From Candidatus Lindowiibacteriota bacterium (lineage in GTDB: Bacteria > Lindowbacteria > 2-12-FULL-62-27), in assembly GCA_023249255.1 (NCBI GenBank), contig JAHFCY010000218.1, positions 1 through 5,467 of the forward strand: DNA of 5,467 nucleotides. Direction: 5' to 3'. Of the stretch, positions 1,751 through 5,209 are shown in pieces. Position 1 is the first letter of the stretch, and each line of letters opens with the position of its first letter. The notes under the pieces are model-generated. The model saw nothing but the letters and a program-made list of their open reading frames with translations, was not told the DNA's origin and made no database searches. A program made the translations under genes and the position numbers.

Positions 1751-3136
1751 ATGACGCCCCAGTACGATCTCGCAGTCGTCGGCGCCGGCCCGGGCGGCTA
1801 CGTCGCCGCGATCCGCGCGGCCCAGCTCGGAAAAAAAGTCATCGTGGTTGACGACGAGGGCCGTCCGGGCGGCACGTGCCTGAATTGGGGATGTATTCCG
1901 TCCAAGTCTCTTCTTCGGACGGCCGAGAGGTTTGAGTTTTTGAAGAACGCCGGACGGTATGGATTTTCGGCCTCGGACGTCGGATATGACATGAAAAAAA
2001 TTATCGGCCGAAGCCGTGACGTGGTGGCCAAACTTAATTCCGGCATCGAATTTTTGTTCAAGAAAAATAAAATTGACTACCGGGTGGGCCGCGCTAAAAT
2101 TCTCAACGCCGGCCGGCTGGCCGTCAAGGATGACATCTTCACCGCCGGAAAAATTCTGATCGCCGTCGGAGCCAAACCCCGTCTTCTGCCCGACGTCCAG
2201 CCGGATGGCCGGCGTGTGCTGACCAGCAAGGACGCGCTCCTGGTCGAACAGGCGCCGGCGAGTCTTCTCATCATCGGCGCGGGCGCGATCGGCATGGAGT
2301 TCGCCTATTTTTTTCATGCTCTTGGCAGTCAGGTCACCGTGATTGAACTTCTTGACCGGATTTTACCGATGGAGGATCCCGAAATTTCCGACCGGCTTCG
2401 AAAAATTTACGAACGGCAGGGTATGACGATCCAGACCGGCGCTCGCGTCGAAAATTTGTGCGTGGAACAGTCCGGAGTGCGCGTGAACCTTGAGGTGTCC
2501 GGCGCGAAATCAGCCGTGAGCGCCGAGACCGCGCTGATTGCGATCGGCGTCGTCCCCAACACTGCGGGCCTGTTCGCGGAAGGGATTAAACTGCGTGAGG
2601 AAAAAGGCTGGATTGCCGTCGACGATAATTTCCAGACGTCTCTGCCCGGTCTCTACGCTATCGGTGACATCATCGGCCCCCCGTGGCTGGCCCACGTGGC
2701 GTCTCACGAGGGTGTCATCGCCGTTGAACGCATGTTCACGCACGAAAAACCGGAAATCAATTATGACGCCATTCCCGCCTGCACCTACTGTCAGCCGCAG
2801 GTGGCGAGCGTCGGGCTCACGGAGGCGGCAGCCCGGAAAAAATTCGGGGAGGCCGTCGAGATCGGCCGGTTTCCGTTTCAGGCGCTCGGCAAGGCCCTCG
2901 CGACGGACGCCGCTGAAGGATTCGTCAAACTCGTTTTCGCCGGCCCGCACGCCCAGATTGTCGGCGCGCACATTCTCGGACACGACGCCACCGAAATCAT
3001 TGCGGAGCTGGCATTGGCGGTCGCGATGGAGGCCACGCGGGCCGACATCCTGTCCACCATCCACGCGCACCCGACCATGGCGGAAGCCATTCTTGAAGCC
3101 GCCCTTGCTTCGGCCGACCGCGCAATACATATTTAA
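1751..3136 (+). CDS. lpdA: Dihydrolipoyl dehydrogenase (E3)
   Basis: A full-length 461-residue flavoprotein disulfide reductase that reoxidises dihydrolipoamide on E2 (and on glycine cleavage H protein) with NAD+. Visible motifs in order: FAD-binding GAGPGG (11-16); redox-active disulfide GGTCLNWGCIPSK with Cys43 and Cys48; NAD-binding IIGAGAIGMEF (174-184); the ATG motif LIAIGVVPN (262-270); second FAD motif LYAIGD (301-306); and the C-terminal interface HAHPTMAE with catalytic His440 and Glu445, completed by the partner subunit. Length and motif order are normal for the family. The CLNWGC form separates it from glutathione and mercuric reductases. A Cys344-x2-Cys347 pair sits at the start of the dimerisation domain. 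The start lacks a clear Shine-Dalgarno site and lies 2 bases after the HDOD stop, so translation probably depends on coupling. The adjacent E2 gene and the downstream lipoate synthesis gene support a role in the PDH complex. Confidence 0.96.
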   Translation: MTPQYDLAVVGAGPGGYVAAIRAAQLGKKVIVVDDEGRPGGTCLNWGCIPSKSLLRTAERFEFLKNAGRYGFSASDVGYDMKKIIGRSRDVVAKLNSGIEFLFKKNKIDYRVGRAKILNAGRLAVKDDIFTAGKILIAVGAKPRLLPDVQPDGRRVLTSKDALLVEQAPASLLIIGAGAIGMEFAYFFHALGSQVTVIELLDRILPMEDPEISDRLRKIYERQGMTIQTGARVENLCVEQSGVRVNLEVSGAKSAVSAETALIAIGVVPNTAGLFAEGIKLREEKGWIAVDDNFQTSLPGLYAIGDIIGPPWLAHVASHEGVIAVERMFTHEKPEINYDAIPACTYCQPQVASVGLTEAAARKKFGEAVEIGRFPFQALGKALATDAAEGFVKLVFAGPHAQIVGAHILGHDATEIIAELALAVAMEATRADILSTIHAHPTMAEAILEAALASADRAIHI

Positions 3137-3168: not shown

Positions 3169-3600
3169 ATGAAGAAAATTCTGTTGTGTCTGGTGATCGC
3201 CGCTTTTTCCATCGGCGTGGCGATCTCGGCAAGTTCCATTTCTGCGTTTGCTGACGATGAAAAACCGGCCAAGGAAGGCAAGCACAAGATGTACGGTGAC
3301 AAGCCGAAGTCTGCAACCGGCAAGATCAAGGCGATTGACGCCAAAGCCAAGACCGTGACGCTCACCAAGAAGGACCGCAAGGAGAAAAAAGAGATCGAGA
3401 TCACGGTGACGGTTACGGACAAGACCAAGTTCAAGGAAATCGACAGTCTCGACGATCTCAAGGTGGGCGATAAGATCGGCGCCAAGTACGTGGAAAAGGA
3501 CGGCAAGATGATCGCCAAGTCGATCGAGAAAAAAGTCCAGGGTGAGCGCAAGGGCCACAAGAAGAAGGGGCACAAGGAAGAGAAGGAAGACGGGGAATAG
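3169..3600 (+). CDS. Small secreted lysine-rich protein with a predicted beta-barrel-like domain, function unknown
   Basis: A 143-residue protein. Residues 1-28 form a typical Sec signal peptide: MKK, a hydrophobic core to about residue 20, and an AFA|DD cleavage site after Ala28. The mature protein is therefore predicted to be periplasmic or extracellular. Residues about 48-121 alternate beta-forming and charged residues: SATGKIKAIDAKAKTVTL (48-65), EIEITVTVTDKTKF (75-88), DDLKVGDKIGAKY (95-107), KMIAKSIE (113-120). The pattern G-x-I-x-x-I-D...T-V-T...T-D-x-T-x-F...L-x-V-G-D-x-I is like that of small secreted OB-fold-like or DUF5666-like domains; this is pattern recall, not a search result. 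The tail (122-143) is rich in Lys, Glu and His. ATG 3169 was chosen for its ribosome binding site and signal peptide. Lysine codons are 27 AAG to 7 AAA by hand count, the reverse of lpdA. The 3' end overlaps the longest version of the lipB-lipA frame by 59 bases. Its link to lipoate genes is unclear. Confidence 0.82.
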   Translation: MKKILLCLVIAAFSIGVAISASSISAFADDEKPAKEGKHKMYGDKPKSATGKIKAIDAKAKTVTLTKKDRKEKKEIEITVTVTDKTKFKEIDSLDDLKVGDKIGAKYVEKDGKMIAKSIEKKVQGERKGHKKKGHKEEKEDGE

Positions 3601-5209
3601 CGCGCTGAACAAAGAACAGCCGCGAGCGTTTCAATTTTCCCGGCTCGGACTCGTCCCATACCGCTCGGCGCTGGCGCTTCAAGAAAAGCTGGCTGAGTTT
3701 CGCGCGGCTGATCGGATTCCGGACACGCTGATTCTTCTTGAGCATCCGCCGACCATCACGCTCGGCGCGTCGGCGTCATTTGCCGACGTCCGGATGCCTC
3801 TGCCGGCGTTGTCCCGCATCGGCGTCGAGGTCGTTCAGACCCGGCGTGGAGGGCACGTGACGTATCACGGCCCCGGCCAGCTCGTCGCCTATCCTATTTT
3901 TAAACTTGGCGGCCCGAAAATCGTCGACTGGGTCCGGTATCTTGAGGTCGTCATGATCCGCACGCTTGCGGTGTTCGGGATCACCGCGGTTCCCAACGGC
4001 GCTGTCGGCGTCCGCGCGCAGGGAAGAAAGATCGGCTTCGTCGGCCTGAAAATTTCCCGGGCCGTGTCTCACCACGGCATATCACTCAACGTCGATTGTG
4101 ACCTCCGGCCGTTTTCCTACATTGTCCCCTGCGCCTGTGACGGCGATCCGATCACGTCGATGGAGGAATTGTCTCTGCGGCCGCCGCGTCTCGATGACGT
4201 CGCATCTGAACTGTCACGGCAATTTCAAACGGGCATCGACGGCCGGCCGCGCGAATCCCGGCCGGTGGACGCGGATGAACTCTGGTCGGTCGTCAGCGAA
4301 GACGTCGCCCGATCCGCTCTCCCGCGCCGAAATCTTCCCGACCGCGCAGGATCCAAACCCGAATGGCTTCGGCGGCCCCTTCCGGGCGGCCCGGTCTACA
4401 CGCGCATTCGAGAAATCATGGACAGCCGCCATCTTCATACCGTCTGCGAAAGCGCCCATTGTCCGAATCTTGGCGAGTGCTGGGGCCGCGGCACCGCGAC
4501 CTTCATGATCCTCGGCGACATTTGCACGCGCGCATGCGGATTCTGCGCCGTCACGCCCGGCAAGCCCGCCGGCCTTGATCTGCTCGAACCCGCCCGCGTC
4601 GCCGATGCGGTCCGGCGCATGGAACTTCGGCATGTCGTCATCACGTCGGTCAACCGGGATGACATCGAAGACGGCGGAGCCGCTGTCTGGGCGGAAACCA
4701 TCCGCGCTGTCCGCGAAAAAAATCCGGAAACGGCGGTCGAAGTCCTCATTCCGGATCTCTGCGGCAACTGGACTGCTCTTCAGACGATCCTCGACGCCGC
4801 GCCCGACATTCTCAGCCACAATCTTGAAACCGTCCCGCGACTGTATCCAACCGTCCGGCCGCAGGCCCGATACGGCCGTTCGCTTGAATTGTTGCGCCGC
4901 GCGACATCTGCAGGATTTGTCACCAAAACCGGTCTCATGTTAGGTATCGGCGAGCATCCTTTCGAAATTTTCCGGACTCTTCGCGACGTCGCCGCCGCCC
5001 GCGTTGAGATTCTCACCCTTGGCCAGTATCTTCGTCCTTCCCCCGCGCACTTGCCGGTCGACCGATGGGTCCATCCGTCCGAGTTCGATCACTGGAAACG
5101 CGTGGGCCTGCGCATGGGATTTCAGCACGTCGAGTCGGGGCCTCTCGTTCGGTCGTCCTATCACGCGGAGGAGCAGGTCGCCGCGCGCATGGAGGCCGGG
5201 TTGACATGA
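3542..5209 (+). CDS. lipBA: Bifunctional octanoyltransferase (LipB) / lipoyl synthase (LipA) fusion
   Basis: One uninterrupted 555-codon frame carries both enzymes of lipoate assembly. The LipB part (about 30-232) transfers octanoyl from ACP to a lysine of a lipoyl domain. It shows LILLEHPPTITLG (63-75), RRGGHVTYHGPGQLVAYPI (101-119), Lys163 in GRKIGF, SHHGISLNV (176-184) and Cys197 in PCACDGDPITSM. The Lys163-Cys197 spacing of 34 equals that of the known LipB Lys/Cys dyad. After a linker of about 35 residues, LipA (about 270-555) inserts sulfur at C6 and C8 with two 4Fe-4S clusters: auxiliary Cys302, Cys307 and Cys313 (CESAHCPNLGEC), radical-SAM Cys328, Cys332 and Cys335 (CTRACGFC), and the C-terminal RSSYHA with cluster-ligand Ser539. 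Other LipA landmarks are KPEWLR, SVNRDD, DILSHNLETV and LTLGQYLRPS. Both halves look complete. GTG 3542 is the only standard start upstream of the LipB domain, but its first 19 residues come from overlap with the previous gene. A CTG at 3605 with GGGGAA 7 bases upstream would give a more LipB-like N-terminus. Confidence 0.95.
   Translation: MSARATRRRGTRKRRKTGNSALNKEQPRAFQFSRLGLVPYRSALALQEKLAEFRAADRIPDTLILLEHPPTITLGASASFADVRMPLPALSRIGVEVVQTRRGGHVTYHGPGQLVAYPIFKLGGPKIVDWVRYLEVVMIRTLAVFGITAVPNGAVGVRAQGRKIGFVGLKISRAVSHHGISLNVDCDLRPFSYIVPCACDGDPITSMEELSLRPPRLDDVASELSRQFQTGIDGRPRESRPVDADELWSVVSEDVARSALPRRNLPDRAGSKPEWLRRPLPGGPVYTRIREIMDSRHLHTVCESAHCPNLGECWGRGTATFMILGDICTRACGFCAVTPGKPAGLDLLEPARVADAVRRMELRHVVITSVNRDDIEDGGAAVWAETIRAVREKNPETAVEVLIPDLCGNWTALQTILDAAPDILSHNLETVPRLYPTVRPQARYGRSLELLRRATSAGFVTKTGLMLGIGEHPFEIFRTLRDVAAARVEILTLGQYLRPSPAHLPVDRWVHPSEFDHWKRVGLRMGFQHVESGPLVRSSYHAEEQVAARMEAGLT
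5191..5195 (+). promoter_or_regulatory. Ribosome binding site of the response regulator gene
   Basis: GGAGG inside the last codons of the lipB-lipA fusion, 10 bases before the ATG at 5206. It supports the start that overlaps the fusion stop codon as ATGA. Confidence 0.55.

Follow-up and report, generated by a model that had tools for sequence, protein, structure and literature searches.

The bacterium from which our DNA derives carries octanoyltransferase (LipB) and lipoyl synthase (LipA) in a single chain, and, judged from the sequences, this fusion is real and fixed in its bacterial group. The stretch analyzed here (the window) is the whole 5467-base contig of a MAG whose genome is 89% complete (G000). 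It was compared within its phylum with two further genomes (G001 and G002), the three representing three genera of one family. The fusion is single copy in each of them, at 69–73% identity, and both domains lie in one frame in all three as well as in four other lineages. The stop indicated by the search in G002 sits upstream of the start of the fusion gene. A single MAG contig of 5467 bases might join adjacent genes through an error of assembly or sequencing, but the same fusion, with a homologous stop-free linker, is present in the two other genomes of the family. Because three genera share the fusion, and the substitutions in the linker follow a coding pattern, such an error is extremely improbable, and the two independent genomes rule out an assembly artefact.

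One frame with two catalytic domains

The fusion frame (3542–5209, forward strand, stop included; true start between 3542 and about 3626) has 555 aa without internal stop in the ORF listing of the window. The original prediction held that LipB and LipA share this frame with both sets of active-site residues intact, and both statements stand. Pfam and NCBIfam, above their curated cut-offs, delimit a LipB-type region at residues about 26–234: LplA-B_cat matches residues 40–229 with 133.5 bits (cut-off 27), and TIGR00214 (lipB) scores 120 bits (cut-off 83.55). The octanoyltransferase domain can be placed at residues about 29–233 (3626–4240, forward). The LipA domain, a radical SAM lipoyl synthase, occupies residues about 271–551 (4352–5194, forward), and over residues 269–551 it obtains 367 bits with TIGR00510 (cut-off 310.25) and 409.8 bits with PRK05481.

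The Cys/Lys dyad of LipB (Lys163, 4028–4030; Cys197, 4130–4132) is kept in all seven of the fused proteins that were aligned. The same alignment shows, in seven of seven, the CX4CX5C motif of the auxiliary cluster (C302, C307, and C313; 4445–4480), the CX3CX2C motif of the radical SAM cluster (C328, C332, and C335; 4523–4546), and the RSSY motif (residues 537–540; 5150–5161), all on the forward strand. The RSSY serine is presumably the auxiliary-cluster ligand, a role known for LipA. The AlphaFold2 model made from a 46-row alignment (its residue 1 being residue 23 of the frame) has both halves folded, with a mean pLDDT of 92 and a pTM of 0.81. Foldseek matches it to human and M. tuberculosis lipoyl synthase and to the LipB structures 2qhs and 1w66.

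The linker and the start of translation

The linker (residues about 234–270; 4241–4351, forward) is open. It had been predicted at about 233–270, with about 35 residues, and free of stops, which agrees with the sequence, where its length is about 40 residues. In the model it is partly structured, forming a short strand and a helix followed by a short low-confidence stretch. Among the phylum relatives it shows 0.65–0.72 differences per codon at third positions versus 0.31–0.47 at the first two, and its identity is 37–59% versus 63–80% in the domains. It therefore appears to evolve as expected of translated coding sequence, under weaker constraint than the domains. Because it is less conserved than the domains, a precise role for the linker is not implied. 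Its length and sequence vary between fused lineages in the alignment.

Could LipA also, or mainly, be made as a separate protein, from an internal start or by proteolysis? The linker does contain an in-frame GTG (4265–4267, forward), the relatives' linkers carry other ATG or GTG codons, and the confidence of the model is lowest not far from this GTG, at residues about 256–258. However, the GTG has no Shine-Dalgarno match, as had been noticed from the start. Neither L002 nor L003 keeps a start codon at this position, the matching codon of the closest relative being GTC, and the alignment shows no other linker start codon conserved among the phylum relatives. Separate production of LipA, which the original prediction had not favored, is thus quite unlikely.

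At the other end of the frame the original prediction holds only in part, since the open frame is confirmed but its GTG at 3542, simply the first standard start, is probably not the true one. Two observations speak against this start: the codons of residues 1–28 overlap an upstream DUF5666/CusF-like gene over its last 59 bases, and this 28-codon stretch is not conserved in the relatives. The fusion of the closest relative begins with an ATG beside residue 29 of the window's protein. The only other start-like codon is CTG 3605, just past the stop of the upstream gene, and it is a possible start. The upstream gene itself (window 3169–3600), which lies between Lpd and the fusion, has a good Shine-Dalgarno site and encodes a Lys-rich, secreted-looking protein; no such gene occurs in the Lpd–fusion interval of either relative.

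Genomic context, spread, and origins

To judge by gene order, the fusion gene terminates a pyruvate dehydrogenase (PDH) operon. On the same forward strand, the window contains the end of PDH E2 (2-oxoacid dehydrogenase acyltransferase; 3–452, cut by the contig start; PF00198), an HDOD-domain protein (471–1748; PF08668), and dihydrolipoyl dehydrogenase (Lpd, E3; 1751–3136; TIGR01350, 520.7 bits, over the cut-off), and the E2 gene stands in the same order in L133 and L134. In the best relative (G001) the order is E1a-E1b-E2-HDOD-Lpd-LipBA, and E2 has one lipoyl domain. In each of the three genera the HDOD gene, of signaling type, has the same place between E2 and Lpd (L133 9670–10932, L134 13275–14567); such a conserved regulator within a PDH operon is unusual, and the first 150 or so residues of the protein have no Pfam match. 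In G002 (L134 8496–11344), the operon is interrupted between Lpd and the fusion by genes for a Fic-domain protein and for a reverse transcriptase that probably belongs to a group II intron.

Acceptors of lipoylation, i.e., GcvH and lipoyl-domain proteins, are present in the three phylum genomes. The fusion is the only match of the PF21948 profile in each of them, and 13 of 14 control genomes score, so that the search works. The genomes are 81–94% complete, and a second LplA or LipB could escape detection in any one of them. As the only LplA/B-type catalytic domain found per genome, the fusion probably accounts for all protein lipoylation in the window's phylum.

A search for the taxonomic spread of the LipB-LipA order, as had been suggested, shows that it recurs in at least four lineages outside this phylum. 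Among named genomes it is found in a Candidatus Sumerlaeota MAG (L046) and in an Anaerolineales MAG (L047). A survey of 386 genomes revealed at least two further fused lineages, G153 and G160, from two further phyla; this is a lower bound, as the survey overlooked the fusion of G299, which came to light afterwards. A single-frame fusion is present in 10 of the 37 genomes sampled from the phylum of G160, and in an eleventh case (G420) the fusion is broken into two overlapping frames.

Several of the fusion genomes of the G160 phylum also keep a separate second LipA, and some have a LipB apart from the fusion, which suggests that two sets of lipoylation enzymes serve different targets. An E2-linked fusion together with a separate second LipA is seen in L180–L188 and in G160, G299, G399, G408, G411, G414, and G417. 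The Anaerolineales genome likewise retains one or more separate lipoylation genes beside the fusion. Because these genomes keep separate LipA or LipB, their fusion seems to be an additional set that is linked to PDH, whereas that of the window's phylum looks like the only one.

Some other candidates proved not to be fusions. Full-length-looking matches in Opitutae, G331, G284, G209, and G171 correspond to separate genes with stops between them, and the long LipA frames of G027, G030, G077, G179, G297, G289, G328, and G340 contain no LipB in the same frame. The frame of G027 (L126 728–2542; 604 residues) has LipA in its C-terminal half, and its about 300 N-terminal residues match neither LipB nor the LplA part of NF053790.

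The gene immediately before the fusion is E2 or Lpd in G153 and in the G160 phylum (ten single-frame fusions), and it is Lpd in the Anaerolineales MAG. Overall, PDH genes are beside the fusion in four of the five fused lineages, and in the window's clade the fusion is within the operon; the short contig of the Sumerlaeota fusion contains no PDH gene. PDH genes are near 10 of 105 unfused lipA loci, for which the flanks were shorter than for the fusions. Given the unequal flank lengths and the small number of lineages, the association of the fusion with PDH genes is to be read as a trend and not as a formal test.

On each of the domain trees (LipA and LipB) the fused rows need five changes, which makes five origins an approximate figure, as many deep branches are weak. 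AU tests in which all fused rows were held together, a group defined by architecture and not from the trees, gave p = 0.0022 for LipA and p = 0.033 for LipB, rejecting one origin of all fusions on both domains. As far as the phylogenies tell, the LipB-LipA fusion arose several times in bacteria. The LipA of the window's clade groups with Planctomycetota and Verrucomicrobiota (99% SH-aLRT), and its LipB is nearest to a Chloroflexota row (weak); the two halves may have different histories.

Proposed function and comparison with known systems

Separate LipB works through an acyl-enzyme formed with its Cys/Lys dyad, and LipA adds sulfur to the protein-bound octanoyl group (PMC8639206, PMC12246082). 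Because the catalytic residues are intact, we infer the same chemistry here, and the fusion is very probably a bifunctional enzyme, encoded in a PDH operon, that octanoylates and then sulfurates lipoyl domains. The LipB half would take octanoate from octanoyl-ACP onto Cys197 and then attach it to the lipoyl-domain lysine of PDH E2 or GcvH, after which the radical-SAM LipA half would insert two sulfurs to give the lipoyl group. Both halves would be active and the chain would stay uncut. One chain expressed from the end of the PDH operon would thus supply both steps in equal amount and alongside the PDH complex, and proximity would help LipA to receive the octanoylated domain from LipB.

Such a hand-over within the chain, which the original prediction had proposed, is plausible. 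The fuller reading, i.e., a recurrent PDH-dedicated bifunctional enzyme with intrachain hand-over on which an entire candidate phylum relies for all its lipoylation, is tentative, and we consider it somewhat less than an even bet. Competing with the hand-over step, though not with bifunctionality, is a neutral explanation to which we give nearly even chances: the two enzymes would be independent within one chain, the stop between translationally coupled adjacent genes having been lost neutrally, with equal dosage as the most that is gained and no hand-over. Adjacent unfused lipB-lipA pairs are common (L031–L045, L117–L121, and L123), so that fusion needs only a small step, and the variable linkers of the different lineages also suit this explanation. 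Against it, the trees show at least five fused lineages, most of them with PDH genes alongside, which suggests some benefit, as does the conservation of the fusion across three genera whose proteins have diverged by about 30%. Equal dosage, together with co-expression or co-localization with PDH, may suffice to explain the fusion.

LipB and LipA act successively on the same protein-bound substrate, and as long as the enzymes are separate it is difficult to test whether they cooperate physically. The natural single-chain forms, which have repeatedly arisen beside PDH genes, offer a direct test of coupling, and the fusion would be a compact part with which to lipoylate enzymes in engineered hosts. 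Such fusions are probably already labeled as multifunctional by the automatic annotation of protein databases. We found no report of a LipB-LipA fusion in the open-access literature; for the LplA-LipA fusion a curated family (NF053790) already exists.

The N-terminal half of the window's protein shares with LipB (TIGR00214; PDB 2qhs and 1w66) the fold, the Cys/Lys dyad, and a score above the cut-off, but LipB is normally a separate protein and not the first half of a longer chain. The C-terminal half has both cysteine motifs and the RSSY of LipA (TIGR00510; PDB 5exi and 8ugo) and scores above the equivalog cut-off, but LipA is also normally separate and here follows LipB. NF053790, the bifunctional lipoate--protein ligase/lipoyl synthase, has the same arrangement, with the attachment enzyme N-terminal and LipA C-terminal, yet in this family an ATP-dependent ligase forms the attachment half. 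The window's protein is not a member, as it scores 382 bits (cut-off 800) and matches only profile positions 332–606, i.e., the LipA part. Finally, adjacent unfused lipB-lipA pairs, as in L031–L045, which are mostly from Opitutae, have the gene order of the window but, unlike it, have at least one stop codon between the two genes.
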